In this document: positions 1 through 31,800 of the stretch, piece by piece
Numbering within the stretch: the first letter of the stretch is position 1
Layout: every line of letters begins with the position of its first letter
Assembly: GCA_900128565.1 (NCBI GenBank)
Contig: LT635944.1
Location: forward strand, 1-35,463
Direction: 5' to 3'
From: Stramenopiles sp. TOSAG23-6
Taxonomy: Eukaryota; Sar
DNA: 35,463 nt
Notes under the pieces: model-generated
Told to the model about the DNA's origin: nothing
What the model saw: the letters and a program-made list of their open reading frames with translations, nothing else
The model's database searches: none
Translations under genes and position numbers: made by a program

Positions 1-55
1 GAATCTCCAGCCGACGAACCACTTGTAATCAATAAAGATCCACTCGCGCCATTTT
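1..55. repeat. Near-identical repeat copy A (partner at 856-910)
   Basis: Bases 1-55 equal bases 856-910 at every called position (one N at 884). The offset of 855 bp is 285 codons, exactly three 95-residue modules. The copy is in frame. Confidence 0.9.
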
Positions 56-12000: not shown

Positions 12001-15000
12001 TGTGTAGATCCACCAGTCTGTAGCAAGATCAAACCTGATGAACCCGCTTCTGAATCCCCCGTTGATAATTTAATCATACCTGTTCGGCCAAAGCTTGCAG
12101 TGCCAGTTTCAAGAGTGACATTTCCTGAAATTCCTTCAATGCCAGCATTCATTGATCTGATATCGAGATGACCTGAGGAAGTCTCCTGAGAAAAACCTGT
12201 GGCGATATTAATATGACCACCGCGTTCATCAGAGGTATTACCAGCTAAAATTTTGATGGCGCCACCATTTCCACGGGCCCCACTTCCAACAAGGATGTCA
12301 ATACCACCTCCACTTCCTTTATCAGAATCTCCTGTTGCAAGAAGAATACTACCTGAAGTTCCACGACTGGCAGTTCCAGTCTTCACATAAATTTCACCCG
12401 ATACCCCATTTATCCCTGAATTTGATGTAAAAATTTCAATATTGCCCGATGACGTACGTTCACTATGCCCACTCTCTACGGAAATAGATCCACCTGAAAA
12501 TGAACCTGTAATGATATCACCTGCTCTCAGTCTTATATTCCCACCAACACCAGAATCTCCTATGCCAGATATAATATTAATATTACCGCCACTTCCTCCT
12601 ACGGCTTTTCCAGAAGCTACAGTAATCTGACCAGAGTTTCCACGCGTTGATTTACCACTTGAAATTTGAATAGCACCAGAGACACCAGAAACACCAGCAT
12701 CCACAGACGCAATATGAATCATACCGGATGATGTATGTTTGCCAAAACCACTTGACATCTTGATATGTCCCCCAGAACCACCTGAAAGTAAGGTTTGGGC
12801 CTCACCTGCCGTCATAATAATGTCACCCCCAGGCCCAGAATTCCCCATTCCAACCAGAACTTTAAAATCACCACCGCTACCTCCTGTTGAAGCACCAGTA
12901 GTAATAATTATTTGACCAGAATTTCCTTCACTAGACGTCCCTGTGTCTAATGTAATATTACCACTAGTCCCTGATTCTCCAGCATTAGAAGTGATCATCT
13001 TCATGTTACCAGAATCAAAAAAATCACTGTAACCAGACGATAACTTTACATCTCCACCTTTAACCCCACGGTCTTGGTTTTCATCTAAAGATCGCCCGGC
13101 AACAACTTTCACATCCCCCCCATTAAAAGTATCCCCTGTTCCAACACTAATGCTAATATCACCACCGGAACCTCCCTTTGCAGTACCTGTATTCACGGAA
13201 AACTTCCCAGAGGAGCCAGCAGATGATGTACCAGTCGTTATTAGAGCATTGCCAGACACGCCTTCTTCGCCTGCATTATCAGTTTGGAGGATCATATTTC
13301 CACTGTGGAAACCACGACTAAATCCTGTTTTCACAGTAACGGATCCCCCCAGAACGTCAGCAGTAGTCTGATCTTCCGTGAGACCTGCAGTGAAATGAAT
13401 ATCTCCACCATTTCCAAGTTGCCCTGTTCCAACTTGCACTTCAATATTACCACCATGTCCTTTTTTGGCACTACCAGTTTCCAAAACTATAGCACCCGAT
13501 TCAACTCCTGTAGCATCGCCTGTGTTTAGACGAACATCCCCTGAAACACCCTTTGCACCAGAGTCGGCAGTATGAAGAATGATATTGCCACTAGATGTTT
13601 GGGTTGATTTACCTGTAATAAGTTCTATCAATCCACCCGAAACTTTACCCGAGCCAAGTGTATCACCAGCCGTCATTTGTATCACCCCCCCAGATTTCGC
13701 CAAGCCAGTTCCTACTTTGACCAATACATCTCCTCCATGACCCGCGACAGAATCGCCGGTTTTTATAGCAAATTGTCCAGATCTGCCGTATTGGGCCGTA
13801 CCCGTTGTTACTTGTACGGATCCAGAGACACCAGCAGCAGCTGAATTAGCAGTCGATAGAAATATTTGACCAGATGAGGTTGTTGCGCTTGCACCAGAAA
13901 CGAGGCTAATTGACCCCCCTGATGATGTTGCAGCAATACCTGCAATCATAGATATATCACCACCTCTATCTCCAGCACCTTCCCCGTATGCTTTACCACC
14001 TGTGAATTCAATATCACCCCCCTTTCCCCCACTTTTCGAGTTTTTGGAGCGACCATCGCCTCCGGTAATTGAAACAATACCCCCTGCTTTACTATCATGC
14101 GTGGTGTTACCAGCATACAACAGGATATCTCCACCAGGCCCTGTGTTTCCATTGCCAACAGTAACCATGACAGAGCCACCTCTACCATTTATAGCCTCTC
14201 CCGTTGTTAGGTACATCGACCCCGAGTCTCCTGCCGTTGAATTACCGGTTGTGAAGAGCATTGCTCCTGATACACCTGCGTTTCCAGCATTGGGAGTATC
14301 AATGATGAAATTTCCACTCGAAGTGGGAGTACTTCTTCCTGTTTTCATAAGAATAAACCCACCAGACCCAGAATCTGTGGTATCGCCAGCATAGAAGAGT
14401 ATATCACCACCGGATTGTTTATTTCCTTCACCAACTTTGACTTCAAAACGACCACCATGACCCCCAGATGCATTCCCTGTGGTTAGAATGAAATTCCCCG
14501 ACGTACCTTTACTTGATGTACCTGTACCAAGTTCAATGTAGCCACTGACACCCGCCAAACCTGCATTAGGTGTATCCAATTTAATACTTCCTGATGTAGT
14601 GGCCAGACCTTGACCAGTACTCATAGTAATTTTACCGCCAGTTCCACCGGCAGAGTCACCACCAATTATTTCAATGTTACCTCCATTATCATCCAACTTT
14701 GTCCCAGAACCATTTCCACCACTGATAATAATGTCACCACCACCGCTATACCCCCCCGTACCTTTTCCAGACCCACCCGTTAGATATACTACACCTCCGC
14801 TATATCCTGATTTTGAAGATTTTATAGTCGAATCCCCAGCTTTGATATTCACGGGGCTTCCGTTGCCACCATTACCAGATCCAACCATAAGCTCAATATC
14901 ACCGGCGTATTCTTTTTTTGATGATCCGGTCACCATATGAATGAAACCAGTGGAGTTTGATTTCTTTACACTGGCATTTCCTGTCGTAAAATTCATATAC

Positions 15001-18000
15001 CCACTGTTGCCATTGGCTCCAGCTGCGGCAGTAATAAGTGTAATATCACCCGATGATGTTGATTCTGAGTATCCCGAAGTCAGTGTAATGTTTCCACCAC
15101 GACCTGATGCGGCATCTCCACCTGTTAAAAGTATATCCCCCCCTGTGTTATAATTGCTTAAACCTTTTGCTTCTCCGCCGATGACAACGACATTACCACC
15201 AGTACCTCCATTTGACGAACTTTTACTCGATCCTTCTCCAGCACTTATCTGAACTTCACCACCGGAAGAATCATCATCAGATGTTAGACCGGCGCTTAAT
15301 ACAACATTTCCTCCATTCCCAGTATTTCCATTTCCAACAAGCATATCTATATGCCCACCACGCCCACCTTCAGCATTGCCTGTGGTAATTTTGACAAGAC
15401 CCGAGTTTCCTTTTGTTGATTTTCCTGTGTGAAATTCTAAAACCCCGCTAACACCAGCTTTCCCAGCATTAGCAGTATTAACAATGAAGTCCCCAGAGGA
15501 CCGCATTTGACTATAACCAGTTACAAGATTTACACTACCCCCACTAATCTTTGCATTTGTTGTTGTTCCTGCTTCTACCAGTATTTTCCCTCCAATGCCA
15601 GTTGTACCTGATCCAACTTTAAGCGAAATACTTCCACCCTGACCTAATGTTGCAGTACCAGTAGTTACTGTAATATGACCACTTTTTCCAGATGTTGTTG
15701 TTCCGGTGCTAATATCTATCTGCCCGGATACACCAGATTGACCTGCATTTGCAGTCCATAATTCTACATGACCTGAGGAACTGGCAATTCCTGAACCACT
15801 ATGCATGATCAGGGACCCACCACTACCTTTGCGCGACCAACCACCTGTAAGCTCAAGGTTTCCTCCTCTATCTAATATAGGAGAACCACCCATGGCACGA
15901 CCCCCAGTAATAACAATAGCACCACCATCACCGCCATTAATATTCGACTCTGAGGATCCTTCACCACCAGTCATCACAATTTTACCACCACTCATATATG
16001 CAGCGGTTGAATTCCCTGCATTTACAATGACATCACCTCCATTGAAAGTGTCACCAGTACCAACATACATCTCAATATTACCACCTGCACCACCTTTGGC
16101 ATCCCCAGAACGAAAAGAAAAGGAACCAGAATTTCCGGCACTGGTAGTACCTGTATTCAGTAGTATACTTCCGGAAATTCCAGATTCACCAGCATTGGGA
16201 GTATTGAGGTATACATTTCCAGAAGAAGAAAATGAAGAGTATCCACTATCAAGATTTATATATCCTCCGGAAGCTCGGTATGTTGTGTCTCCTGCGGAGA
16301 GTTTTAGGTAACCACCTGAACCAAAATCACCTTCACCTACCTTAATATCTATATATCCACCATTACCCCCAGTAGAAACACCTGATTTAAGATCTAAATA
16401 ACCAGAATTTCCAGAACTTGAAGTACCCGAAGCCAGTGTAATTGAACCTGATACCCCCCTAGTTCCACCATTTGCTGTGTTCAGTACAAACCTACCAGAC
16501 GAGGTACCAACAGATTGTCCAGTAGAAAATAATATTGAGCCACCAAAGCCCATAAACGCAGAGCCACCTGTGATTTCTACATTCCCCCCGTTATCTTCTG
16601 ACGCAGCTCCCATCGCTTCACCACCTCGGATCTCAATCATACCCCCATTGCCACCATCATGACTATGTGCAGATGAACCTTCGCCAGCTAAAATAGACAC
16701 CTTACCACCTACTGCTGCATTAGCAGATGTGCGACCACCAAAAAAGAAAAGATCGCCACCATTTTTATAATCTCCATCACCAACAGCAATAGTGATGGTG
16801 CCTCCTGGGCCAGATGTAGTTTTTCCCGTTTGAAGAGTCATTGAACCAGAAGAACCCGCAGTTGAGGTTCCAGTATATAGTGACATATCACCGCTAGTTC
16901 CACTTTCTCCTGCATTACTTGTAGACAAATTTACCGAACCACTAGAGCGATCACGACTAGTTCCACTTCTTAGAACAACAGATCCTCCAACTCCACCGAT
17001 TGCAGCACCACCAACAACCTCTACATTTCCAGCACTATCACCGGCAAATTCACCTTTTGACTTACCACCGGTAAGTCGTACTACACCACCATTTCCACCG
17101 TCACCAGCGTCAGTATTTGTACCCTCACCAGCATTGATGAAAACAGCACCACCAACAGCAGATTTCGCGAGCGTTGCACCAGCGTTAAGGGACACATCTC
17201 CACCATCACCTGTATCGCCAACCCCAACCATGATATCAATCGAACCCCCTGATCCACCTCTAGCATATCCAGTTTCGAAAGTTATACCCCCAGATGAACC
17301 ACCGGAAGATGATCCTGTATTAAGGGCAATATCACCACTTACACCATAAACACCAGCATCCATCGACATAAGCATAATATTCCCGGATGATGTACTAGTT
17401 CCTTCACCTGAGCGTAATGTTAATGTTCCACCAGTTGCGGTTGCCGACTTTCCACCATCCATGGAAATGTCTCCACCAAAGCCAACCTCGGCCCCACCAC
17501 CCTGCAACATAATGTTACCCCCTTCACCGGCACCAGAATGCGAAGAAGAAGTTCCACCATGTAATTGTACTGTTCCACCACTACCAGCATATGAAGCATC
17601 AGAATCACCGCCATATAATTGGACTTTTCCTCCTGACTTGAAGTCATCTGTTGTCTTACCAGCATTGATAGAAACTTGTCCACCATCCCCACTATCACCA
17701 TCTCCAACGGCAAGCAAAATCTTACCCCCAGTACCACTTTTGGCAGTCCCGGTTGAGATGCTTAAAGCGCCTGATATACCACCAGATGATGTACCAGATC
17801 CAATGACCACCTTCCCCGAAACGCCTGATGTTCCAGCATTAACACTACTAATATGGACTTCTCCACTGGACGATACAGAACTTGCACCGGACTGAAGTTC
17901 TAACGAACCCCCCGTTCCAGATACGGCACTTGTGGAGCCTGCTTTAAATCTCACTGATGATCCCGTCTTGGTATTGCTAGATCCTCCACTAATTTCGATA

Positions 18001-19775
18001 GTACCGGCAGCCCCGTCTATAGCATTCCCTGACATTAGGGAAATATTACCAGTAGATCCTGATTTTGAATCACCAGTTACCATTGACAGAGATCCAGTAG
18101 AGCCAGATGTATCTGCTGGAGCAGAGCCTATTGCCACATCTCCAGATCTAATTCCTTGGGACGCACCTGACATCATTTTTAGCGAACCACCGTCACCATT
18201 CACCGCAGCGCCACCGGATACTATGACTGTACCACCTGTATCCAATGTACCAAGTCCTTTGCTGCCCCCCCCACTTATATTTATTTCCCCACCACTCCCT
18301 CCATTATCGTTATCTTCACTATTTCCATCACCACCAGTGATATTAATTTTACCACCTGTGCTACCAGATGCACTAGTATCTCCTGCACCGAGGGTTAGCA
18401 TGCCCCCAAGATGGCCTGACATACTGGTTCCTACTTTGAGATCAATACCCCCAGCAGTTCCCGCGGATGTACCTGTTTTAAGCGATATAGCACCTGAGGT
18501 ACCCTCAGTCGATGTACCAGTCCAAAGGGAAACATCACCACTGGAACCTTGGGTACCACCATTTGACGAGCTTACCTGGATTTCACCAGAATGTTTACTA
18601 TCGGAGCTACCTGATTTTACAGATACATTGCCACCTGAATGACTTGGACTTGAGGTTGCTCCAGCAGAAATTTTGATTTCACCACCTTGAACAGCATTCC
18701 CGGACCCGACTTTTACACTGATGTTGCCACCATGCCCACCAGCGGATTCACCTGTTGTTAAAAAGAGAGATCCTGTATCACCTGCTGAGGATGCACCTGA
18801 TGCAATAGACACGTCACCACTACTACCACTACTACCAGCTTTTGCAGACATAATATTGACATCACCACTAGAGGAAAGTTCAGAAATTCCACTAACAAGC
18901 AGAATACGCCCTCCACTCATTGTGGCGGCAGTTCCCCCTTGGATTTTCACGGTGCCTCCATTACCTTCAGCTGAATCACCACCTTGAAGAAGTATCTCAC
19001 CACCAGCCTGACCAAGAGATCCAGTTTCAAAAGCAGCTTCACCATGTGCAGCACCACCAAAAAGATATATACTTCCACCCCCACCGCCATTTGCGGCAAG
19101 TCCATCACCAGCTGAAATATTCACAGATCCGCCCAAAGTGTTGACTTCATTCCGATCGCCAGCAGTCAACTTAATATCGGCTGCAGATTGCAATTTAAAT
19201 TGTGTATCATCTAAAATCATTTCAAAGCGGCGCCCACCTGATGCAGGCCCGGATACTTGAAAGTGTCCGCCTCCAAATACAGGGTCTTCTTCTACGATAA
19301 GGTTACCAACTACACGATTGATCCCAACGAAAGATGCAGGGCACGGCATATCGAAGACAGTGCCCCGACAATTTGTACTGAAAACATCAGCAACAGTCAT
19401 ACACTTATTCTCCGAAGCACACCAAGCACACTCATGTTTGTCGGCACAGCTCCCGCAAGTTTGGAATTCATGGCAAACTGGCATTACCGGGCACTCTTCC
19501 TCCAGGGAAACCCAACTGGGGCACGGAGACCCATCTTGGGGACCTATTGAATCTCCATCCATGCAAGTTAGTGTGGAAAGACAGTATCCACACCCCTGTG
19601 TACGAACACAACCTCCACAAACCTTTACTTCATCCCAATAAGGTCCATCTATACCATCATCGAAAGAAGCACATGTCTGTGCAGTGACTGAAGTTAAGAA
19701 AAACAGTGATATGAAAGAAGTTAAAACTATCATTATAAATTGTGTTTTAAGGCTAGCCCTTTTACTAAATACCAT
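1..19775 (-). CDS. Giant secreted PSI / Gly-rich solenoid / S74 self-cleaving fibre-like protein (3' end beyond left edge)
   Basis: One open frame (codon low positions divisible by 3) runs from ATG at 19773-19775 to the left edge with no in-frame stop: at least 6,591 codons and no intron. Order: signal peptide (residues 1-32), two PSI-like Cys modules (about 53-145), a short linker, solenoid-like repeats (about 190-5020), a non-repetitive pre-domain, an S74 chaperone domain (about 5118-5232), then repeats again to the edge. The repeats are Gly/Ser/Thr-rich with alternating beta-prone residues (pattern SG-x-I-x-L-x-TG), which suggests stacked beta coils. The start is the first Met after an upstream stop near 20007, and the signal peptide follows it directly. 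The family is not one I can name. A role as an extracellular fibre, scale or adhesin is inference. The frame is also marked by proline-rich shadow ORFs on the opposite strand that stay in one phase throughout. Confidence 0.9.
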   Translation of the reverse strand, partial: MVFSKRASLKTQFIMIVLTSFISLFFLTSVTAQTCASFDDGIDGPYWDEVKVCGGCVRTQGCGYCLSTLTCMDGDSIGPQDGSPCPSWVSLEEECPVMPVCHEFQTCGSCADKHECAWCASENKCMTVADVFSTNCRGTVFDMPCPASFVGINRVVGNLIVEEDPVFGGGHFQVSGPASGGRRFEMILDDTQFKLQSAADIKLTAGDRNEVNTLGGSVNISAGDGLAANGGGGGSIYLFGGAAHGEAAFETGSLGQAGGEILLQGGDSAEGNGGTVKIQGGTAATMSGGRILLVSGISELSSSGDVNIMSAKAGSSGSSGDVSIASGASSAGDTGSLFLTTGESAGGHGGNISVKVGSGNAVQGGEIKISAGATSSPSHSGGNVSVKSGSSDSKHSGEIQVSSSNGGTQGSSGDVSLWTGTSTEGTSGAISLKTGTSAGTAGGIDLKVGTSMSGHLGGMLTLGAGDTSASGSTGGKINITGGDGNSEDNDNGGSGGEINISGGGSKGLGTLDTGGTVIVSGGAAVNGDGGSLKMMSGASQGIRSGDVAIGSAPADTSGSTGSLSMVTGDSKSGSTGNISLMSGNAIDGAAGTIEISGGSSNTKTGSSVRFKAGSTSAVSGTGGSLELQSGASSVSSSGEVHISSVNAGTSGVSGKVVIGSGTSSGGISGALSISTGTAKSGTGGKILLAVGDGDSGDGGQVSINAGKTTDDFKSGGKVQLYGGDSDASYAGSGGTVQLHGGTSSSHSGAGEGGNIMLQGGGAEVGFGGDISMDGGKSATATGGTLTLRSGEGTSTSSGNIMLMSMDAGVYGVSGDIALNTGSSSGGSSGGITFETGYARGGSGGSIDIMVGVGDTGDGGDVSLNAGATLAKSAVGGAVFINAGEGTNTDAGDGGNGGVVRLTGGKSKGEFAGDSAGNVEVVGGAAIGGVGGSVVLRSGTSRDRSSGSVNLSTSNAGESGTSGDMSLYTGTSTAGSSGSMTLQTGKTTSGPGGTITIAVGDGDYKNGGDLFFFGGRTSANAAVGGKVSILAGEGSSAHSHDGGNGGMIEIRGGEAMGAASEDNGGNVEITGGSAFMGFGGSILFSTGQSVGTSSGRFVLNTANGGTRGVSGSITLASGTSSSGNSGYLDLKSGVSTGGNGGYIDIKVGEGDFGSGGYLKLSAGDTTYRASGGYINLDSGYSSFSSSGNVYLNTPNAGESGISGSILLNTGTTSAGNSGSFSFRSGDAKGGAGGNIEMYVGTGDTFNGGDVIVNAGNSTAAYMSGGKIVMTGGEGSSESNINGGDGGAIVITGGRAMGGSPILDRGGNLELTGGWSRKGSGGSLIMHSGSGIASSSGHVELWTANAGQSGVSGQIDISTGTTTSGKSGHITVTTGTATLGQGGSISLKVGSGTTGIGGKILVEAGTTTNAKISGGSVNLVTGYSQMRSSGDFIVNTANAGKAGVSGVLEFHTGKSTKGNSGLVKITTGNAEGGRGGHIDMLVGNGNTGNGGNVVLSAGLTSDDDSSGGEVQISAGEGSSKSSSNGGTGGNVVVIGGEAKGLSNYNTGGDILLTGGDAASGRGGNITLTSGYSESTSSGDITLITAAAGANGNSGYMNFTTGNASVKKSNSTGFIHMVTGSSKKEYAGDIELMVGSGNGGNGSPVNIKAGDSTIKSSKSGYSGGVVYLTGGSGKGTGGYSGGGDIIISGGNGSGTKLDDNGGNIEIIGGDSAGGTGGKITMSTGQGLATTSGSIKLDTPNAGLAGVSGYIELGTGTSSKGTSGNFILTTGNASGGHGGRFEVKVGEGNKQSGGDILFYAGDTTDSGSGGFILMKTGRSTPTSSGNFIIDTPNAGNAGVSGAMLFTTGNSTAGDSGSMYLTTGEAINGRGGSVMVTVGNGNTGPGGDILLYAGNTTHDSKAGGIVSITGGDGRSKNSKSGGKGGDIEFTGGKAYGEGAGDRGGDISMIAGIAATSSGGSISLVSGASATTSSGQIFLSTANSAAAGVSGSVQVTTGTAQYGRSGQFAIKTGDSVAGHGGDVLVKVGTGLAKSGGVIQMTAGDTLGSGKVSGGLIELITGKSTQTSSGNIILHTADSGAKGVSGDVRLNTGDATGVESGAIVLETGSAKKGHGGNIEVQVGTGQLGNGGDIHFTAGLTEDQTTADVLGGSVTVKTGFSRGFHSGNMILQTDNAGEEGVSGNALITTGTSSAGSSGKFSVNTGTAKGGSGGDISISVGTGDTFNGGDVKVVAGRSLDENQDRGVKGGDVKLSSGYSDFFDSGNMKMITSNAGESGTSGNITLDTGTSSEGNSGQIIITTGASTGGSGGDFKVLVGMGNSGPGGDIIMTAGEAQTLLSGGSGGHIKMSSGFGKHTSSGMIHIASVDAGVSGVSGAIQISSGKSTRGNSGQITVASGKAVGGSGGNINIISGIGDSGVGGNIRLRAGDIITGSFSGGSISVESGHSERTSSGNIEIFTSNSGINGVSGEIYVKTGTASRGTSGSILLATGDSDKGSGGGIDILVGSGARGNGGAIKILAGNTSDERGGHINIATGFSQETSSGHLDIRSMNAGIEGISGNVTLETGTASFGRTGMIKLSTGDSEAGSSGLILLQTGGSTQGQGGAISLQVGKSGVGKGGNVAIEAGGTIAGSLSTGGSILFSSGNSQFTSSGRIALQTDSAGSKGVSGAISLDTGKSTRGNSGNITMITGGAPKLEKDGVSNGRRGAVALDAGDIYLTANYDDKATIELSSTFVSMEAKNGFDLGSSSLTEPGDSGNVNVFTGNTTDGDTGDLKIWTGTATGGNAGDIEVTVGEGDTGTGGNIELIAGKTTAESTQATGGLIHIESGKSLLSSSGNIHIMSQNAGVSGVSGKIEISTGTTSDGTSGEISLITGLSSVGSSGSVFIGTGNDIDASKSTMKSGNIYVSSGTSNTGNSGYLAISTGAATSGQGGSLSMVVGSGTVGEGGSINMQAGDTSDGFGGGSVSLKTGMSAQTSSGSLYVSTSKGGTEGNTGLIDVRTGTSSSGSSGDIVVRTGNAINGAGGDIKLEVGQGNSGVGGSIFIEAGNTTSTGKTGGDVSITTGKSLSPLKGSSGTLLIATSDAISDGSTGSASIKTGLATAGNSGNLDISTGKAEFVGAAGAINIIVGEGSSANGGHITLKAGLTSAASGSGGAISVSTGKVTGDKSTSGELLLETATATRVSSGSGSITVHTGAANTGSSGSILLKSGAASGSSAGDIEVVAGESSSLPDDNSGGRIVITAGAESKGSGGSIFIKSGFGSTTSSGNIVLASENAGSQGVSGSIALSTGVATKGDSGEISIRTGNTESGRGGKINILVGKGDTVVGGRVSVNAGDSSDESGGSVNIQSGKGTATSSGNINISTPDAGNTGVSGAISVSTGSATDGNSGELDIRTGSATKGSGGSISLVSGKGVGGDGGHVSLTGGDSSNANGGGILLKTGISKEESSGSVLLTSANAGKNGVSGAIEISSGTASEENGNTGFVSLKTGDSEKGRAGGIRLEVGDSSNGIGGVINMMAGNVSSVSDSTGGKIFIMSGSSTQTSSGQISVVTADAGTSGISGNIAFSTGDATAGSSGEIQISTGTSNGGNSGNIQMSVGSSDTGVGGDININAGTALETASTGSGGKVEIKTGAGIATSSGNFNLGTSNAGISGVSGGVAISTGTSSSGTTGEIRIQTGKATGGSGGGIKIMVGEGDGGAGGAIKIEAGVTHHGHSVGGVGGATRIRSGQGLGEDAISGSVSITTANSGKVGHSGPLLLASGTTHHGNSGNVILQSGTATVGQAGYVQIKVGDGTVGEGGHVGVQAGDVLGTSGIVGTGGNVDIKSGFSVGTSSGNINIGTAKAGVSGVSGSIGISTGVSANGGSGEIRISTGDSTGGSGGVIKLSVGSASKSVGGNIKFTAGEATNSKADSTGGSVIVSSGTSATKASGKIHISTASAGKAANGMSGLLALSTGASMAGESGGISLKTGNSVGRGGGSISINVGTSDLSDASEKATGGDIVLKAGDVSPSEGDGGKLLITSGFSKTSSGDIDMFTANAGTEGTSGNMSLRTGTSSAGASGSFILSTGSAKKGAGNIRIASGSTENKAASGGDIAVEAGNVTGKGSGGKISLVTGKGDSTSSGMFGVSTADGGITGSSGAIVVSSGNAAVANSGSISFETGQSLGGSAGDIFLRVGSSSEGASGNLFFTAGNTTADATSKSGGIVDIVSGYSSLTSSGDIRLLTANSGEAGVSGTLLLATGTSNASTSGGIALTSGRAITGRGGDIVLNVGNGVGKGGNIEIIAGKTLGETQSGGKINLISGLSENGSSGNIVISTPNSGKESISGGILVKTGTSSTGSSGEISVTTSSSKTGPSGSIKLNVGESESAKGGDFVISSGDATADSATGGMVRMVTGGSTGEEGKTGDFSLKTENAKNTGTSGAVTIGTGNTADGNSGGIQFQTGTSKGGTGGGISIVVGSGDTVNGGQVKIKSGVSKSGLGGDIALSSGSVATNEIAKSSGNIKIDTSPGTISGQIKLSTGSSTLGNTGSISLLTGAAVLGSAGGIEIGVGKSSVAKGGSINIIAGSTKSDQVNGGKIIINSGSASSLSTTSAKSGSIVVKTADSVLTGGIKLNTGTSSTGSTGSVSISTGASLGGASGNIEITVGTGNTGPGGKIVMSAGKTTIAEIGDGGLVSLSSGSGGVSSGSIDLATPDSATSGKISLKTGSGSTGTSGSISVNTGDAATIGNSGDLSISTGTINTGEGASGSIKLKAGSGTGGSGGAVSLTAGSSGTGNGAEISVVAGSGAANGGKIDMISGRGGKSSGVISIISADSTLSGAISIGTGKASTGNSGNVNISTGSAVGGEGGGISMNVGSGDAADGGSVKISSGSTTAADSLGGSVEISTGTGMARSGFLKIASAATDIGNSGDIQLITGGTKEGSSGDILVGTGTSNSAGGGSISIIVGESGQGDGKTVEISGGKTSAEDKVGGGINIASGIGTKASGDITIKTVDSLGGRSGDLKVSTGDAKTVAGSLNLKAGNSVASAGGSVILQPGGGTDKYSGGSVLLKDASGTSRVAINPDGAIDASSATGQDITIDTGFDAIVNLKDKDAEFVIKHELASGGDEGTSVFRVWKDKVLAHVPVQASTILQPSDKRIKRDIEDSDNNDVLQRLNQIEMKQYRYTEDWAKVRNLKPDDVGVGRPVRGFIAQQVYEIFPEYIHITDNFTLPDKGFHREKFFEVNKIKLSVDLLSAIQEQQSRLTIGANTPDESGGVTINTADAGSYMGGNSKGRSGRIQIRTGAGVGDESGSISIATGHSKNSQAGSINVNIGSSEKEDGGDIVMRAGATKGSGIGGLVLLESGSSSTASSGDIQFKSSEGKTGNSGDITFVTGNSDNGNSGNMVFVAGSAGKDGGSVKIQAGEGGVSGGHVELLSGGSVGGISGDTEIATAKSSLNSGSLSLSTGDSEQSSGKVSISSGDSVSAGSVYLQSGDSEEISGSDVQIHAGSGGHVGGAVTLHSGGGASRSGYVTVKSAATDRGDSGALEIGTGDSSEGGATGRIFIKSGHSENSDSGDITLGSGDASEGNAGSTNFIGGASGEGLGGSISFSAGETSSSVGGSITVQSGVSENGPSGEIAIETASVNRGHGTSGKLLLRSGDTQSTTSGSVYIGSGDTQNHVVGDVLVGVGSTNSGVPSASLKLTATDALLVAGSSVSSSGGRVVLRSGSSTGTSSGDVILSTADTEGVGVSGSIVVASGSSELDPSGDIFLKSGDSESSSSGGLSLRTGNAEGGAGGSIAVAAGSGTTGAGGSVAIVGGETREDGGVGGSIRITSGKSIHKGESGNSVVTTGMSAEGNSGSTVISTGASDAGNSGTVSVRSGDAVRGNSGAILVSSGKSGTGNGGLVRLAGGSTTAKDGIGGGIHLLSGQGQSSSGSVEVASGDLHQYGKSGDLTFSSGAVTHGVSGNVQISSGDAATAGHVSIEVGNSSSGTGGSFSISGGKSFTGRGGNVFVRSGSSESNSSGDIYISTPMSKSTKASSGSISVSSGSSKNGSSGAVNIASGDANNASSGIVSIKSGSAKGGTGGNVIMSVGSGDKGKGGNITLAAGESTSRKSHGGSLSLSSGKGVDASGNIVVQTHKTLSSENNADASGIITMSTGNAENESGGILISSGVSKESSAGDIAIAGGMGSYSGGNVFLTAGGSLAADGEGGDIQMLSGYGSKKSGTIILSSSNSTDTSGALSLHSGDSKNGQSGNVTVSTGDGKSAGTIHFDVGESKFGKGGDILLAAGISEDLIGGSLFFKSGDGDVASGGISFLSSDTKNGASGSLLXTSGSSAGDSGNVTIASGSSSGSTAGGISIAVGNTKNGSGGSISISAGSTKSSESTGGSVGVLSGEGTHSSGSVIVASSSITKKDSESGSISLFTGSAASGNSGEISIATGDARKPGNISIAVGASTSSDGGHLNISGGTALAEGFNGGDVSISSGDGAKSSGEVRIGTGSADSSGSIDITTGNSSTGVSGSLNLGSGTSSVGSTGTVTLKSGSSSIGFGGDILLSGGSSSSSNGGLIAIAAGDSAGEKSRGGDLSMSSGVGRFESGKASFKTANSENGASGSLLITSGSSAGD
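856..910. repeat. Near-identical repeat copy B (partner at 1-55)
   Basis: Matches 1-55 except for an N at 884, and diverges after 910. The surrounding modules are far more diverged, so the pair marks a recent in-frame duplication or gene conversion, or an assembly overlap artefact. Confidence 0.9.
4080..4424 (-). other. S74-type intramolecular chaperone / self-cleavage domain
   Basis: Residues about 5118-5232 carry the S74 hallmarks: LQPSDKRIKRDI with Ser5122 (codon 4410-4412) and Lys5127 in the S-x4-K dyad spacing; then LQRLNQIEMKQYRYTEDW; then GFIAQQVYEIFPEYI; and a terminal helix KLSVDLLSAIQEQQSRL. In endosialidase tail spikes and MYRF this domain trimerises and autocleaves just before the Ser. 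If that holds here, residues 1-5121 would be released from a C-terminal part that begins with Ser5122. The domain is usually near a C-terminus, but here more repeats follow in frame. Confidence 0.85.
4413..4740 (-). other. Pre-S74 linker/stalk segment
   Basis: Residues about 5013-5121 leave the Gly-rich coil pattern. They read as mixed beta segments (GGSVLLKDASGTSRVAI, then TIDTGFDAIVNLKDKDAEF, then SVFRVWKDKVLAHVPV) directly before the S74 signature. In phage and eukaryotic S74 proteins the region before the chaperone is typically the end of a trimeric stalk or beta-helix. The frame was checked codon by codon across here and is continuous. Confidence 0.6.
4741..19200 (-). repeat. N-terminal repeat array: about 95-residue modules of six short Gly-rich coils
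   Basis: Within the giant frame the sequence is a two-level repeat. The basic coil is 14-18 residues, (S/G)G-x-(I/V)-x-(I/L)-x-(T/S)G plus a loop. About six coils form a module of roughly 91-98 residues. Recurring landmarks per module are SSGN, NAG-x-x-GVSG, TGTSS-x-G-x-SG, GG-x-GG-x-I, VG-x-G-x-TG-x-GG and AG-x-TT. Roughly 50 modules fit here by length (estimate). Some modules carry extra coils, for example near 15100-15300 and 17450-17640. Alternating hydrophobic beta residues with glycine turns suggest a beta-solenoid; this is inference. Confidence 0.85.
11545..11735 (-). other. Non-repetitive insert within the repeat array
   Basis: Residues about 2681-2744 break the Gly-rich coil pattern. 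They contain charged and aromatic segments (KLEKDG, NGRRGAV, NYDDKATIEL, FVSMEAKNGFDLG) before the coils resume at PGDSGNV. The stretch DAGDIYLTA resembles the transition segment after the PSI head (SAADIKLTAGD near 19180). It may be a relic of an internal fusion or duplication, or a spacer domain. Confidence 0.55.
19341..19619 (-). other. Two tandem PSI-like cysteine-rich modules
   Basis: Residues 53-95 and 101-145 have matching cysteine spacing. Module 1 begins CGGCVRTQGCGYC and module 2 begins CHEFQTCGSC followed by CAWC. Both continue with a later Cys and a Pro-Cys-Pro or Cys-Pro end (PCPSW; PCP). The pattern C-x2-C-x5-C-x2-C with aromatic-Cys pairs (GYC, AWC) matches plexin-semaphorin-integrin (PSI) folds, small disulphide modules of extracellular proteins. 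Assignment rests on spacing only. Confidence 0.65.
19680..19775 (-). other. Signal peptide of the giant protein
   Basis: Residues 1-32 have the classic layout: a basic n-region (K5, R6, K10), a hydrophobic core (about 13-27, FIMIVLTSFISLFFL) and a small-residue c-region ending SVTA. The likely cleavage is after Ala32, before QTC. This sends the product into the secretory pathway. Confidence 0.85.
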
Positions 19776-19907
19776 GTTCAATGGAATTATTCGTGAGCTC
19801 GCGTTATTCTCTAAGCTGCAAACACTAAAAAGATGCAACAGTGCTTTATCTGAGTCCCTGGATAATTTCTTGGAATGAATAAAATTGCACACAATGGGAC
19901 AACAGCT

Positions 19908-19992
19908 GTATGTAAGAGTTGTACGCGGATCCTTTTCACAGTTACAAAGGGATACCGTCTTTTTGGTCGTACGAAATTTTATACCTAATCTA
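19908..19992 (+). other. Introner-like core, possible 5'UTR intron of the LMBD2-like gene
   Basis: At 19968 the sequence CGTACGAAATTTTATACCTAA matches the core of the introns at 21614 and 21840 with one or two changes, on the same strand. A GTATGT donor-like hexamer occurs at 19908 and TCTAG ends at about 19992. The shared CCAAAATAC tail is not present here. It may be a degraded element or an untranslated-region intron; transcript data are needed to tell. Confidence 0.45.
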
Positions 19993-20143
19993 GGATCTTT
20001 GTTTTACGTTGGAAATTGAATTTACTTTCTAAATTTCTTGGTTTTTCGTGATAAAATTGCTAAACCGACATTTTCCAGTACCGGGTAATCAACTTCGAAT
20101 TTTTTTTTTGCTTGCCAGACAAAGAAAAAGAAAAAGAGAAGAG

Positions 20144-20284: not shown

Positions 20285-22376
20285 ATGTCGCTCGATCATT
20301 CTGAGAGTAATGGCATCACACTCAAAGTTGTTTCAGTTTTTATTATGCTTATATTGGGAGTCTATGTTTGTTATCTTGTAAAGAGATATGCTAGGGCAGA
20401 TACACCCACATTGGTTCTTTTTATTGTATGGGTTTCTTGGTTCCTCTCGTTATGTGGTTCTTTGATGCTTCCGATAGATATTGCGATAACATTGACAGAA
20501 CGTAATACATCTGCTGGTATCCTTGTATTGTGGGAAATTAACTATTGGGCAACTTTTATACTTGCTTGGGTGGTTGGACCCTTACTGATGGAGTTTGGCG
20601 CATCAGGACACTTTGAAACAAAGCTGAAGTTTATTTCGGCCGTGAAGTCTAATGGCAAGTGCTATATGTATGGTTTGATTGCTCTTGTTTTTATTTTTTT
20701 TGCTGTTGTGATGGTGGATGGTTTCACAAACCCTTTATCTATTTTAATGGCTGCTGGGAATGTCTACGGTATTCTGCTTGTAGTAGTTCTCACTTCGTAT
20801 GGTTTATTCAACGTCCCTCGTAATTTGTGGCATTCAGCAAATCCAGAATTAGAGCTCAAGAAGTTAGAATTTATGGCTCCTCAAAAAGAAACTGAAGTTT
20901 GGGAATCAAAACGAGATGTAGAATGTGTTATGAGAGAAGTGTGGGCAGTAGATTATTGTTTGCGAGAAGAATCTAACACACTGGACAACCCGTTGCTTAC
21001 ACAATATCTTCAACAGATTTTAGACAAGTGTAGCCTTTCTAGTTTTAATTTTACTGGAATTCCAGAAGAAGTTTGGTCTCCATCGACTAGTAGGAAGCAT
21101 AAAGTGGATAAAATGGCAAGCATTCACCGAAGACTTCGATCTGCTTTAGCTGTAAAGGGACGTGCTCTTGCTGAGTGGGACTTTTTGATGAATCGTGTGT
21201 TAGAGTTAGAAGATTTGTTAAATGTAGCTGCAATGCCTTCTGGAACTAATGCTGTTGCTGCTACTGGTGATAGCACAATTAAGTTACAACTTTTTGCTTG
21301 GAGGTGGTACTGGAAGGTACACATTGCTCCTTGTGCAAATCGAGTGTTTGCAGTTTTATTCGGTTGTTTATCACTTGTAGTTTTGTGGTGCGAAGTGTCA
21401 ATGCCGCTACAAATGGGACTTTCTCCATTTGGTTTTCTTGTGCGACATTCGGATCAGTCACAATTTTTTTGTGCTTTGGCAGTTGCAATTCCTCTTTGGT
21501 ACATTACCTTCTGTTGCTATTCTTCATTAGCTGCTGTATTAAAGGTTTTCTCAAATTTGACACAACGGGGTTGCTGCACGATGGATGCATATGATATTTA
21601 TGATGGCCAGCATGTATGTTTTATTTTTTTCAAATTCGAATTTATTTTTCGTACGAAATGTTATACCTAACATTTTTTTTTAGATTTTTTTTGAAATATT
21701 TTTCCAAAATACATACTGATCCTTATGCATTGCTGTTTAACGCTGGTTATATTTGTCGAATGCAATTTTCTCTTAATGCTAACTTTCTTGCCATTCTACA
21801 ATACAATGAAAGCGCCTTTAAAAATGTAGTAGGACAAATGTATGTTTTATTTTTTTTTAAATTCCAATTTATGTTTTTTTTTCGTACGAAATTTTGTACC
21901 TAACGAATTTTTTTTGAAATATTTTTCCAAAATACATGGAAGTTGGCGTACTTGGAAAAAATGTCCCGCTTATTTTCCCAGCTGCGATGGTTTTTATTGT
22001 TTTAATGCTTTATTACGAAATGTACGAAAAAATTCTGCGCTGTTTTGGGATTGACATCGCCTTTTTGGGTGATGTTAATGTCGAAAACCTTGGACCAGAG
22101 CATGAAGACCAAATTATGGAGGGACGAGGGCTCATTAGAAATGATCGTAGAGTCATTAGAAATGATCGTAGAAGATTTGGCGACTCGAAAAGAGTAGGTC
22201 CTTCGAGCAATTACAGGTCAGAAACGAAGTCAAGGTTCAAATCTACACGCAGAAGCGGCAATGAAACACTCGAAAATTCAGTGAATTCTATTGAAGTTGG
22301 TGATCTCGCGGTTGATATAGATCATACGAAAATGCCTCTTTGGTTAATTGATAGTAATAGTAGTAGTTCAGATTAA
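20285..22376 (+). CDS. LMBR1/LMBD2-like multi-pass membrane protein (three exons)
   Basis: Exons 20285-21613, 21715-21839 and 21938-22376 join to 630 residues. The first five membrane helices lie in residues about 14-200 (first VVSVFIMLILGVYVCYLV). A charged cytosolic stretch follows (about 205-350), then four more helices; the last (VPLIFPAAMVFIVLMLYY) is in exon 3. This is the LMBR1-like layout. WFLSLCGSLMLPIDIAITL and the segment TDPYALLFNAGYICRM match LMBD2 relatives, which set the exon joins QH/TDPY and VGQ/MEV. LMBR1-type proteins resemble lipocalin receptors; LMBD2 relatives have been linked to receptor signalling, but the role here is unknown. The tail (about 500-630) is Arg/Ser-rich, with a short repeat (LIRNDRR then VIRNDRR). 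Confidence 0.85.
21614..21714 (+). other. Introner-like intron 1 of the LMBD2-like gene (101 bp)
   Basis: Placed by protein conservation between QH and TDPYALLF (phase 0). It begins GTATGTTTTATTTTTTT, contains the palindromes AAATTCGAATTT and TTCGTACGAA, a CTAAC branch-point-like motif at about 21667, and ends CCAAAATACAT. Using the internal TTTTTTTTAG as acceptor would put the conserved exon out of frame or add an in-frame stop. The last two bases (AT) repeat the two bases before the donor. Confidence 0.8.
21840..21937 (+). other. Introner-like intron 2 of the LMBD2-like gene (98 bp)
   Basis: Placed between VVGQ and MEVGVLG (phase 2, splitting the Met codon). It begins GTATGTTTTATTTTTTTTT, shares CGTACGAAATTTTGTACCTAAC and GAAATATTTTTCCAAAATAC with intron 1, and has no AG between the branch motif and its end. 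It is flanked by an AT duplication. Confidence 0.8.
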
Positions 22377-22793: not shown

Positions 22794-23870
22794 ATGTCTT
22801 ATCGTGGACAAGGAGAGTATGGCAACCCCGTAAGAGATGTAGTAGGCTATGGTGCCAACCCACCAAATCCAAGGTGGCCGAATAACGCAAAGGTTGCGTT
22901 ACAAATAGTTGTGAATTACGAAGAAGGTGGTGAACACTGTTTGTTACATGGAGATGGAAAATCTGAGTGGTTATTGAGTGAAATTGTGGGCGCTAAACCA
23001 TATCCCGGACAGCGTCATATAAATATAGAGACTCTGTACAATTATGGATCACGCGCTGGTTTCTGGCGCATTTTTAGAATACTAAAGGAACGAAATCTTC
23101 GTGCGACTGTTTATGCTGTTGGCATGGCTCTGGAGCGCAACCCTGCTGCTGGTCGGGCAATGGTTGATGCGGACTGGGAAGTTGCATCTCATGGTTACAG
23201 ATGGATTGATTATCAAAATGTGGACCAGAAAACTGAACGAGAGCATATTCGAAAAACAGTTGAAATTCATCACCGAGTGCTTGGCCAAAGAGTTTTAGGG
23301 CTTGTATGTTTACAGCATCAATTTTAAATTTATTTATTTTTCATACGAANTTTGTANCTNACNAAAAAAAANTTNAAAATNTTTNCCAAAATACTTTACC
23401 AAGGTAAACCTAACAAAAATACTCGTAAGTTGTGTGTTGAAGAAGGCGGGTTTTTATATGACTCTGATGCATATGACGATGATCTTCCGTATTGGAATAC
23501 GGAGTATGGACGCCCACATTTGGTTATTCCGTATACACTAAGTGAAAATGACATGAAGTTTGTTTCACCGGGTGGTTTTAATAATGGAAGTGACTTTTTT
23601 GGATACTTAAAAGACAACCTGGATTTTCTCATTGCAGAAGGACGCTCTGGTCGTCCTGTTATGATGACTGTAGGTTTGCATGGCAGAGTTGTTGGTAGAC
23701 CAGGGCGTGCAGCTGCTTTAGCTAAATTTTTAGATTATGCAATGTCTTTTGATAAAGATGTTTGGATATGCCGTAGGGATGAAATAGCAAGACACTGGTA
23801 TCGCTATCACTGGCCAGAAGGATATGGTAAAGCTCCACCTTACGCAACAGGTGTATTTAGTAAACTATGA
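22794..23870 (+). CDS. Allantoinase, PuuE/polysaccharide-deacetylase type (two exons)
   Basis: Exons 22794-23303 and 23397-23870 join to 327 residues, the usual length for this family. It hydrolyses allantoin to allantoate in purine degradation. Features: NYEEGGEH (41-48), YAVGMALERNP (107-117), ASHGYRW with His133, HHRVLGQRVLG (159-169), EEGGFLYDSDAYDDDLPYW (185-203) and a C-terminal LHGRVVGRPGR with His265. These are the PuuE signature blocks of the NodB-like deacetylase fold, distinct from the amidohydrolase-type allantoinases. The join GLYQGKPNKNTR fits the family G-x-Y-x-G-x5-TR spacing exactly. It converges with the downstream nitrilase gene, 97 bp apart. AATAAA at 23872 follows the stop closely and could be a poly(A) signal. 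Confidence 0.88.
23304..23396 (+). other. Introner-like intron in the allantoinase gene (93 bp, contains Ns)
   Basis: Placed between GL and YQGKPN (phase 0). It begins GTATGTTTA, carries a CATACGAA-N-TTTGTA core and ends CCAAAATACTT, matching the LMBD2 introns. Flanking TT is duplicated. A canonical GT-AG alternative (donor at 23308, acceptor after CCAAG at about 23404) keeps the frame but replaces the conserved YQG by VC and is one residue short. Nine N bases fall in its 3' half. Confidence 0.75.
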
Positions 23871-28550: not shown

Positions 28551-28854
28551 GTATAGTATACAGTAAAGTTTAATACATGTTAGTGTTACCTACAAGAAAG
28601 CATTTAATTATTAATTACAAGAGGACTTTGCAGTACTAGCTATATATAGGCCTACCTACTAAACCCACGTATTATTTTACATAAGATTCTTGATATTTAA
28701 CGGTCGTAATAACGGTTACACTTCCCCAAGTCTCCCCTTTTATTTCCCTTTTATTCCACTATAATAAACGAAATATTACATTTTCGATAAACATCTTCAT
28801 GGAGTAGGCGTCATGGTCATGTTAAGCTCTTGCTAATAGGTCGAAAGTAAGCAA
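28551..28854. promoter_or_regulatory. Divergent promoter region of the 965- and 1,246-residue genes
   Basis: 304 bp between two divergent starts. It contains TATATATAGG at about 28641 and AT-rich runs (28660-28800). A shared bidirectional promoter is inferred from position only; no defined element is certain. Confidence 0.4.
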
Positions 28855-31800
28855 ATGCCGATCCTGTTGCAATCGACTGGCAATAGATCCGTATTGCCAT
28901 CGATTGCTAAACCACAGAATAAAACAGAAATTACTCGGAGAAAACGTGATGTCGGCAAACTTCCGATTATTCCAATTAGTGGCACTTCTGATACCTCAAA
29001 TTCGTCTTCAAAGAGTAAAATAGTTTACAATCGTCGCACTGCTGCTAATTATCATCATCACAAAAAGCTCATAAAAAGACAATACCAAATACTAGAAAAA
29101 ATGGTGAGACAGCACCAGCGAGATGAAATGACACGCCAAGTTGAAATGTCAGCTTGTAATAGTACTGCCCAACAAACTGTCCTTCGAATTCGTTTTGAAT
29201 CTGAACGTCAGAGTGAAAAAAGTGAAATTCGGCGTTTATTGAAGCATTTGAAAAGAGCTAAATCTCAATTAATCGATAAAACTGCTTATATTGATTCCGC
29301 GGTAAAAGAGACAAGTATAAAAAAGAAAATTAATATAGAAAAAAAAACAAAGAAAAATAGAGCAAAATCAAAATCAAAGTTACTAGTAGAAAATACATCT
29401 AATAGAGATGCAGATGATGTTAGTACTGAAGCAGCCATTGCAGCTATGGAAATGTCTGTTCGGCGGTTGGCAATAGAGCGCGCTTCTGTCGATGATAGCA
29501 TTAGCGGAGATAAGGACAAGTTTCTTGATAAAATGTTAGAGGACTATTTAAAAGAATATAATGATGCAATTCCAAGTAGATTAAATGTACTTTATTTGTT
29601 TATAAAAAAGAGAACACCAGACATAAAGATATCATTTAAAGATATTGAAGAAACAATCACTCGTTATAGTTCAAAGCAAGAAAATGCCACTCGCGCTCAT
29701 CAATTTAAATACCCTAGAATAGTAAAACAAAACAAAATTGAATCAAGTTTGAAAAAATCTTCACACAAAACAATAGAACGGAAGGAAAGTATAAATAAGA
29801 TGAAATACAAAGTAACACAAGCTCGAAAAGAAAAGTATTCTAGCAGTGATGAGACCGATGATGGTGGGTACTATGATGACTTTGCAGTATCTACTAGAAA
29901 AGAAGATAGTGATGACTGGAATAGAACTACCGGGGGCATTACTCACCAAAATCGTAATTCGTTAGGTACAAAGTTTGGTACGGATTCAAATTCGAATTTG
30001 CCAAGTGTTGCCCCACTGAATAGAAATATAGAGCAAAGTAAACATAAAAATCGAGGAAGAAACAATGATTCAGGTAAAAATGCTAAAATAACATTAGCGA
30101 AAAACACAAAGCGTGGTGTAGCACAGAGAGGTAAACAAAATAGAAAACAAAGACAATCAAGAGATCTAAGGCGGGTAAAACGCCGAGAAAGGAAAACACA
30201 ACAATATATGTCAAATCCATATGGCACCAAGAAGAAAAAAAAATACCAGAGTTTTAACATGAAAAAAACAATTCGTTCTCAATTTCGGGCACAAATAAAT
30301 GAGATGTGGTTTCGGATACCTAAAGCACAACGTACTTTGTGGAATAATAATTGGAGACGTGAAAAAAAGATGATCAGAGTTTACCATACAGCTGCATATG
30401 CAATTTCAAAAGCCAGGGCAAATGCCGCGAACATGACAGAGGATGATAAAGAGGAGATGATTCGAAGAATAGACAACTTACTTATCGAGGCAGAGTCTGG
30501 ATCGATTAAACCTGATAATTTCAATGAAAATGACGCGAAAGTCAAAATAGATGATGTATGGTCTGGAGAAACCAACGAAGGAACCAAAACTGCCTTTGAA
30601 GACCAAGATATAAACACAAAACAGGAAAGTATTTCTCAGGAAGATTTCATTGAAAGGGAGACTCTTATAAAGCTTGAGAAACTAAAAGATGCTTTTGAAT
30701 CTGAAGCACTCACAGAAGAACAATTCTTCCAGTTTAAAGAAAGTGTAGTTGAAGCGTCAGAAAAGGCCAAAGCAACTCTCGCGGCAAATTTAGAAGCTCG
30801 GAAACTTGAATTAGAAATGGCGGAGAAAGTTCGAATTGCTGAATTAGAGATGGCCGAAGATATAAAAAAAACAAAGGTGAAGCTAAATAAATTAAGACAA
30901 GCACATAAAGTGGGGGCTTTGACGCGTTCACAATATAATGATTTAAAAAATGGAATTGAAACAAATACTGGTATTCACTTGATGAGTGATTCCGAAGCTA
31001 ATATCGACTCAAATCGTCAATCTCATTACGTTTCACTTAAGGCTTCAAATATATCTCAAGTAGATGGAAGTAATCAAAGTAGTTACAAAAACGCCCCCCC
31101 TCCAGACACTAGCACAATTGATCAAGGAGAAAGTCATCTATCTAATACAAAATCTCCAACCAATGCTATTTCAAAAGAGGAAACACTTAAGTTACAAAAG
31201 CTAGAAATGTTGAAAATCAACGAACGAGCAAAACAACATTTATCCCGCCTGAGAAAGTTTGTTTTCAGAAAGCAAATTAGACCAGGTACTTTATTCCGAT
31301 ATATGCAGTCAAGTTTCTCTGCGGTTAGTATACATATTTCATTTATAGGATTTCTTCGAGGATTGGAAAGAATTGCTTTCCGGAATTTATCAAAGAATGA
31401 TGCAACGCATGTTTTTAGATTGATATCAAAAGGGCGCGCACAGTTCAGTATACGGGATCTTCTCAGAGCACTCGCTGCCCGTGACGGAGAAGAAGGATAT
31501 GATAGGAAGGAACTAGAAAAAACAACAAAATGGGAACAAAAATACAGCATGAGTAGTGCTGATATTGCACGTGAAAAAAAACAAGCAGTTTTAGACACAA
31601 TGAGACTCAAAATAGAGCTCAAAAGACTGAAAATTCGAATCGAGGTTTTTTTTGAACAAATGGACAAGAATATGAGTGGGAACATTAGTTTTATGGAGTT
31701 TGTCCGCGGGATGGAAAGTGTAAATATATCGTTATCTAGGCGTGCTGCTCGACAAGTCTTCAAAATTCTAAGTCCTGATGGTGTTTGTACCCTACAAAAC

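Follow-up and report, generated by a model that had tools for sequence, protein, structure and literature searches.

At issue in this window (the whole stretch of 35,463 nucleotides that was analysed) is how three short insertions that interrupt two conserved protein-coding genes are likely to be removed, given that none of them ends in the near-universal AG. A first-pass annotation, made from the sequence alone, had described them as introner-like introns with GTATG at the start and ATACAT or ATACTT at the end, whose boundaries are ambiguous owing to bases repeated at both edges, and had suggested that the complementary GTAT and ATAC ends might be brought together as in the nonconventional introns of euglenids. 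The sequence agrees with the starts and ends so described, and the features of both genes are collected in Table 1.

Table 1. Exons, introns and edge repeats of the two interrupted genes, numbered from the first letter of the window.
Feature	Position	Strand	Basis
Exon 1, LMBR1/LMBD2-type membrane protein gene	20285..21613	+	ORF; Pfam LMBR1 PF04791, 232.3 bits
Left AT copy of the intron 1 2-nt direct repeat (exon end)	21612..21613	+	Sequence
Intron 1, 101 nt, introner copy GTATG...ATACAT; right AT at 21713-21714	21614..21714	+	nhmmer family match, 45.4 bits; join backed by LMBR1 profile
Branch-site-like TACCTAAC, intron 1	21664..21671	+	Sequence
Exon 2, LMBR1-type gene	21715..21839	+	Joined protein reaches end of LMBR1 profile
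Left AT copy of the intron 2 direct repeat	21838..21839	+	Sequence
Intron 2, 98 nt, introner copy GTATG...ATACAT; right AT at 21936-21937	21840..21937	+	nhmmer, 60.2 bits; GT/GC-AG pair listing; LMBR1 profile
Branch-site-like TACCTAAC, intron 2	21897..21904	+	Sequence
Exon 3, LMBR1-type gene	21938..22376	+	ORF; LMBR1 profile
Exon 1, PuuE-type allantoinase gene	22794..23303	+	ORF; profile match; gapless alignment to solved chains; NCBIfam
Left TT copy of the intron 3 direct repeat	23302..23303	+	Sequence
Intron 3, 93 nt including 8 N, introner copy GTATG...ATACTT; right TT at 23395-23396	23304..23396	+	nhmmer, 22.3 bits; gapless join against three solved PuuE-type chains
Exon 2, PuuE-type allantoinase gene	23397..23870	+	ORF; gapless alignment; NCBIfam

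Removal of introns 1 and 2 gives an LMBR1-type protein that matches positions 3-510 of the 510 in Pfam PF04791 at 271.5 bits, compared with 232.3 bits for exon 1 alone. No relative of this protein was found in the PDB, and the joins of introns 1 and 2 therefore rest on the profile. The allantoinase obtained by removing intron 3 aligns with no gap over GL/YQG to the solved chains 1z7a, 3cl6 and 3s6o, and scores 450.1 bits against the NCBIfam PuuE family TIGR03212 (cut-off 424.6). The joins QH/TDPY, VVGQ/MEV and GL/YQG, which the first-pass annotation had drawn from protein conservation, are thus borne out by a near-complete profile in the first gene and a gapless alignment in the second. The 8 N within intron 3 would fit an assembly built from mixed copies.

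It had also been held that no shift of the boundaries gives a GT-AG intron. Among GT/GC-AG alternatives whose donor lies no more than 45 nt from the 5' end and whose acceptor lies no more than 60 nt beyond the 3' end, one, four and nine stop-free pairs remain for introns 1, 2 and 3, respectively; every one of them alters the protein at the join through residues lost or gained, and in this range the claim stands. The sole pair for intron 1, a GC-AG, introduces extra residues at a cost of 8.9 bits in the LMBR1 score (262.6). Intron 1 has one AG after its branch motif (TTTAG), and a GT-AG join there leads to a stop; intron 2, as had been noted, has none from CTAAC to its end.

The three insertions belong to a large family. 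The core CGTACGAAATKTTRTACCTAA, with up to two mismatches, has 952 + 900 = 1,852 matches in the 8.03 Mb assembly (408 contigs), a number that includes duplicated contigs and possible core-only pieces, and the reversed pattern has 0; a scan of viral contigs for the core gave no match. A profile built from 55 copies found 195 matches in 276,488 bases (26 loci plus the window), of which 94 were near full length, 88 remained after deduplication, 82 had good ends, and 81, beginning GT, GC or AT, form our main set. Including the last two bases these copies are 82-115 nt long (median 96), and their lengths are spread over the three phases as 28/27/26. Many similar copies stand as introns at different gene sites, as expected of introners, and they bear marks of a mobile element in the 2-nt repeat and the short GTAT/ATAC inverted ends. 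Two copies (105 and 91 nt) directly adjoin each other, without an intervening exon, at L031:7483-7678 on contig C1.

A crude coding-potential model called ~78% of the fetched bases coding, but found coding sequence on both sides in only 34 of the 81 copies (and on neither side in 17), and we therefore used a test based on stop-free frames, compared in 150-nt flanks after removal of GT...ACNN, for which 80 of the 81 copies were usable. Removal gave read-through in 57 of the 80, against 3 and 6 for the other two phases. Where a single frame was open on both sides, 51 of 54 copies fit, the expectation being one third, as did 47 of 52 with flanks of 120 nt and 39 of 44 with flanks of 90 nt; fake introns placed at random were distributed 209/195/201 over the three phases. 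In a looser, earlier copy set 54 of 60 keep the frame, and ends shifted by 3 were about equally good. The removed length is determined by this test only up to a multiple of 3; the exact ends rest on protein alignments. Junctions are gapless in the conserved proteins allantoinase, PUS3, SNF2 (ILADEMGLGKTIQ) and an ABCC transporter, and profile matches span the junctions of the LMBR1-type protein and of a TBC domain interrupted by the two back-to-back copies, in which the signature KYQQGMNLIAG is restored once both are removed. Copy number, frame test and protein joins together back the original description of introner-like introns that end without AG.

The longest frame across the joint is in the sense orientation in 90 of 92 copies, which argues for removal at the RNA level, and a sense frame of at least 60 residues crosses the joint in 91 of 92. 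Elimination from the DNA, like that of ciliate IESs, with one copy of the 2-nt repeat left behind, would share the flanking repeat of which one copy is kept, the short AT-rich elements and the restoration of frames on removal. However, ciliate IESs are not known to favour either strand of genes, DNA elimination gives no reason for the strand bias seen here, and both the branch motif and the 5' site are conserved, and we consider the chance of such elimination remote. Translational bypassing of a retained insert, of which the mitochondrial byps are a known case, would also suit the edge repeats, across which a ribosome could jump, but it is scarcely credible for AT-rich inserts of ~96 nt that carry splice-like marks and of which a dozen lie within ~3.3 kb at one locus (L018).

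The copies might instead be ordinary GT-AG introns in which the true AG sites, or accompanying changes in the exons, had been overlooked. Four of the 81 copies do end in AG, and two likely introns of the form GTAAGT...CAG occur in the same genome. Yet joining at the first AG at or after the element end leaves an open frame in 29 of 92 copies, with the phases at 30/33/29, as expected by chance, and the first AG between branch and end does so in 13 of 35; in 54 of 78 copies there is no AG from branch to end. Given also that the alternatives listed for the window introns alter conserved protein, we regard this explanation as highly improbable.

Among 82 copies the starts include GTATGT in 46 and GTACGT in 16, CTAA is present in 78 of 81 at 33-44 nt from the end (5th-95th percentile), and 67 of 81 carry TACCTAAC. 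The oldest third of the copies (27) still shows GTAYGT-like starts and the branch motif, and in these copies two positions of CTAAC, the T and the second A, never vary. While the GT 5' site and branch motif are those of a U2-type intron, AG at the 3' end is found in 4 of 81 copies; the last three bases are CAT in 50, TAT in 14, CAG in 4 and CTT in 3, the rest being others. Thus YAY ends the element in 66 of 81 copies, and it directly precedes the 5' site in 43 of 81. Among the first 100 listed of 540 whole-assembly matches, duplicated contigs included, 86 end in AT and 3 in AG.

U12-type introns are characterized by an RTATCCTT start and a short distance from branch to end. The first-pass annotation had proposed a search for U12-type or other unusual splicing factors; checked on the introns themselves, a U12-type identity did not hold, since 62 of 82 copies start GTATGT or GTACGT and the branch lies 33-44 nt from the end.

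Where the repeats at the two edges match, three cuts yield the same mRNA. The same introners might accordingly be cut two bases upstream, as NN-GT...AC (mostly AT-AC), with the right-hand repeat staying exonic. AT-AC introns form a known class, the end most often found before the repeat is ATAC, GT-AT and AT-AC cuts give identical mRNA at matching repeats, and 3 of 81 copies start ATA. Against this, marks of U12 introns (a ATATCCTT-like start and short branch distance) are absent, AG stands on the right in 4 of 81 copies, and among copies whose edges are unequal, AT is on the right with another pair on the left in 14 and the reverse holds in 5 (P 0.064, above 0.05). Two of the 5 reverse copies have AG on the right, and one of the 5 (L027 7473) probably has a mis-set end.

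In unequal copies the two cuts leave different residues at the join, and 5 of 10 such copies prepared for a left/right comparison were scored. At the junction in a DENN domain the residue is R when the left pair is retained (135.8 bits) and H when the right pair is (132.6 bits), a difference of 3.2 bits in favour of the left-hand bases, and DENND1A and DENND1B carry R at this position. Three copies were undecided: ATP-grasp and DCD models had no preference, and in the third a male-sterility domain scored 29.8 left against 29.3 right but Epimerase 15.3 left against 16.3 right. WD40 models mostly slightly preferred the left pair, some the right. Because of the 14 to 5 split among unequal copies and the DENN residue, we favour the GT...AT cut with moderate confidence on these sequence comparisons, and consider the AT-AC cut unlikely.

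The edge repeat itself accounts for the ambiguity of the boundaries. As the first-pass annotation had pointed out for AT, AT and TT in the window, the 2 nt before GT equal the 2 nt after the ATAC-like end, and this is so in most copies; the dinucleotide is mostly AT, but also TT, CT, GT, GG, AC or AG. When the left dinucleotide is not AT it is nonetheless matched on the right in 11 of 26 copies, where 0.9 would be expected and none of 100,000 shuffles reached 11, while a match of 3 nt was seen in 1 of 81. The repeat thus behaves as a 2-nt target-site duplication, as in insertions of DNA transposons. At the insertion site G follows in 39 of 81 copies and C precedes in 30 of 81, a weak CATG-like palindrome, and among the first 100 listed of 455 whole-assembly matches (duplicated contigs included) 84 have AT on the left. 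No DDE_Tnp_4 (PIF/Harbinger-type) transposase domain was found. Full-length copies that are antisense or lie outside genes, which a free DNA transposon should leave, were almost absent (91 of 92 have a sense frame across the joint), and insertion could conceivably be tied to transcription.

Components of a spliceosome are encoded in the same assembly. An open frame of 2,021 residues contains Prp8, with a score of 1,913 bits against the human protein across 932 residues. A U2AF65-like protein (L038, contig C376) has an RS-rich start and a UHM-like end, and all 16 of its 16 PDB matches are U2AF65; its NCBIfam score is 96.9 bits against a cut-off of 310.3, in a family that also matched two prokaryote controls. 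Its two RRM regions both correspond to RRM1 of the U2AF model, where an RRM1-RRM2 order would be usual. U2AF1 was not identified, the 8 zf-CCCH matches including no pair at a U2AF1-like spacing as judged by eye. Rfam models for U1, U2 and U6 RNAs found none in the whole, incomplete assembly, but the controls gave no match either, so that the missing RNAs say little; Rfam scans of 130,000 bases (13 loci) and of 113,138 bases (8 loci plus the window) gave no match. A strict scan for ordinary introns returned none and a looser one returned 4 GTAAG and 2 GTGAG candidates, of which two were convincing by eye as GTAAGT...CTAAC...CAG introns (L020 8182-8284 and L030 2397-2496), and ordinary GT-AG introns thus appear to coexist with the introners. 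Given Prp8, the U2AF65-like protein and these two likely introns, a U2-type spliceosome is the simplest agent for removal of the introners, and we infer that it removes them.

The alternative raised by the first-pass annotation was that these are spliceosome-independent nonconventional introns of the euglenid kind, removed after their ends pair. Non-canonical introns able to pair their ends are described in diplonemids and euglenids (PMC12621601; PMC6221363), and accounts of the euglenid nonconventional introns give them no complementarity to U1 (PMC6221363; PMC12621601). The copies here resemble them, as far as those accounts go, in their non-AG ends, complementary GTAT and ATAC termini and short direct edge repeats, the last as described in euglenozoans (PMC12621601). 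Folding the introns, a check that had been proposed at the outset, gave support in one respect, in that the ends are paired in 40 of 81 predicted folds against 9 of 81 when shuffled, but the pairing is not reflected in covariation: 274 of 324 cells are paired, the mean for shuffled copies being 276.4, and wherever position 4 is C (GTAC, 23 copies) the opposite base is A and never G. Unlike the described introns, then, the copies have no visible pairing constraint and keep a U1-type start and branch motif, GTAYGT and CTAAC being retained in the oldest third.

The Prp8 score to human is also far above the 936 bits to 9if7, which we take to be a trypanosomatid Prp8 chain, and a euglenozoan host therefore seems unlikely. 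We conclude that the proposal of splicing through GTAT/ATAC pairing is not supported by these comparisons and has a small chance of being right; we would rather take the complementary ends as a relic of short terminal inverted repeats.

Taken together, we think it probable that the three insertions are copies of a short (~96 nt), high-copy, transposon-like introner lying in a 2-nt direct repeat, most likely removed by the U2-type spliceosome as GT...ACNN, usually ending AT. Under such a mechanism a transposase that leaves a 2-nt duplication would insert the element, U1/U6 would read the 5' site and U2 the branch, and the 3' cut would fall two nt past the conserved AATAY. The last two intron bases would then be the second copy of the duplication, mostly AT (producing YAY) and sometimes TT, CT, GT, GG, AC or AG, and the 3'-site reader (U2AF-like) might be altered or relaxed, as has been reported for Fritillaria. 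We put forward more tentatively, as a possibility, that the transposon family rewrote the 3' splice rule of its host, such that the spliceosome finds the branch and AATAY and cuts two bases on, whatever the duplication supplies.

The nearest known systems, as we read the literature, are the introners of Amoebophrya and the introns of Fritillaria. Introner elements in Amoebophrya are reported as repeated non-GT-AG introns with direct repeats at their edges (3-5 nt), inverted repeats at their ends (8-20 nt) and a transposable-element-like spread, described as having no clear end signature and as coexisting with canonical introns and most spliceosome proteins (PMC7789003). The family described here is like them, on that description, in its repeated non-GT-AG introns, edge and inverted-end repeats and coexistence with likely canonical introns, and unlike them in that the repeat is 2 nt (3 nt match in 1 of 81 copies), GTAYGT and CTAAC vary little, most copies finish in YAT, and GTAYG and AATAY are mostly fixed at the ends.

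In Fritillaria borealis AG/AC and AG/AT are reported as the commonest intron classes, U2AF is duplicated, the 3' end is AT or AC within a last triplet YAY, and YAY often stands just before the 5' site (PMC13326754). The introners here share YAY at the 3' end (66 of 81) and before the 5' site (43 of 81), but unlike the introns so reported most begin GT, and one clear U2AF65-like gene was found and no U2AF1 identified. Introners surveyed across eukaryotes are given GY/AG splice nucleotides, with repeats of 3-9 bp in earlier families and a target-site duplication that can supply a splice site (PMC9860276). Ours resemble these in high copy number, transposon-like gain and, in part, target-site duplications and inverted ends, and differ in having a 2-bp repeat, from which they take a 3' end that is mostly not AG. 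Among the titles and opening parts of abstracts searched, a body in which few subscription journals are covered, no paper was found on GT...AT introners with a 2-nt duplication, and we call this combination new within introners.

If the 3' rule has been rewritten no AG would be needed, and the element could land on any dinucleotide and be spliced without trace; a mobile element would then have helped to change a splicing rule. Such introners would go undetected in surveys restricted to GY...AG ends, and gene predictors with the same restriction would break the genes that bear them. Confirmation would make this, next to Amoebophrya and Fritillaria, one more case of many introns that are free of the AG rule. 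Its sequence marks are clean, in that the 5' site, the branch motif and AATAY hardly vary and the variable 3' dinucleotide is the target duplication. With such a family one can test how a 3' site is selected where AG is lacking, and which came first, the element or a change in a splicing factor.

The genome is likely that of a single-celled eukaryote. Inverted or near-identical duplicate contigs are present (C2, C13/C14 and others), and in several contigs an introner end lies within the first 60 bases; these point to amplification artefacts and to an assembly broken at repeats, and from the inverted duplicates of C2 and the C13/C14 pair the assembly looks like a single-cell amplification. At L036, near 8390, ~20 bp of exon sequence is duplicated on either side of an introner copy (KHLRAIYEKHLRAIYE). 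Within the window, an antisense core remnant at 29949-29998 (- strand) lies inside a + strand ORF (28840-32595) and is read as protein. A core-only piece at 19955-19991 lies between the LMBR1-type gene and a divergent 6,667-residue open frame (3-20003, - strand), which consists largely of degenerate GGS-type repeats and runs off the window.
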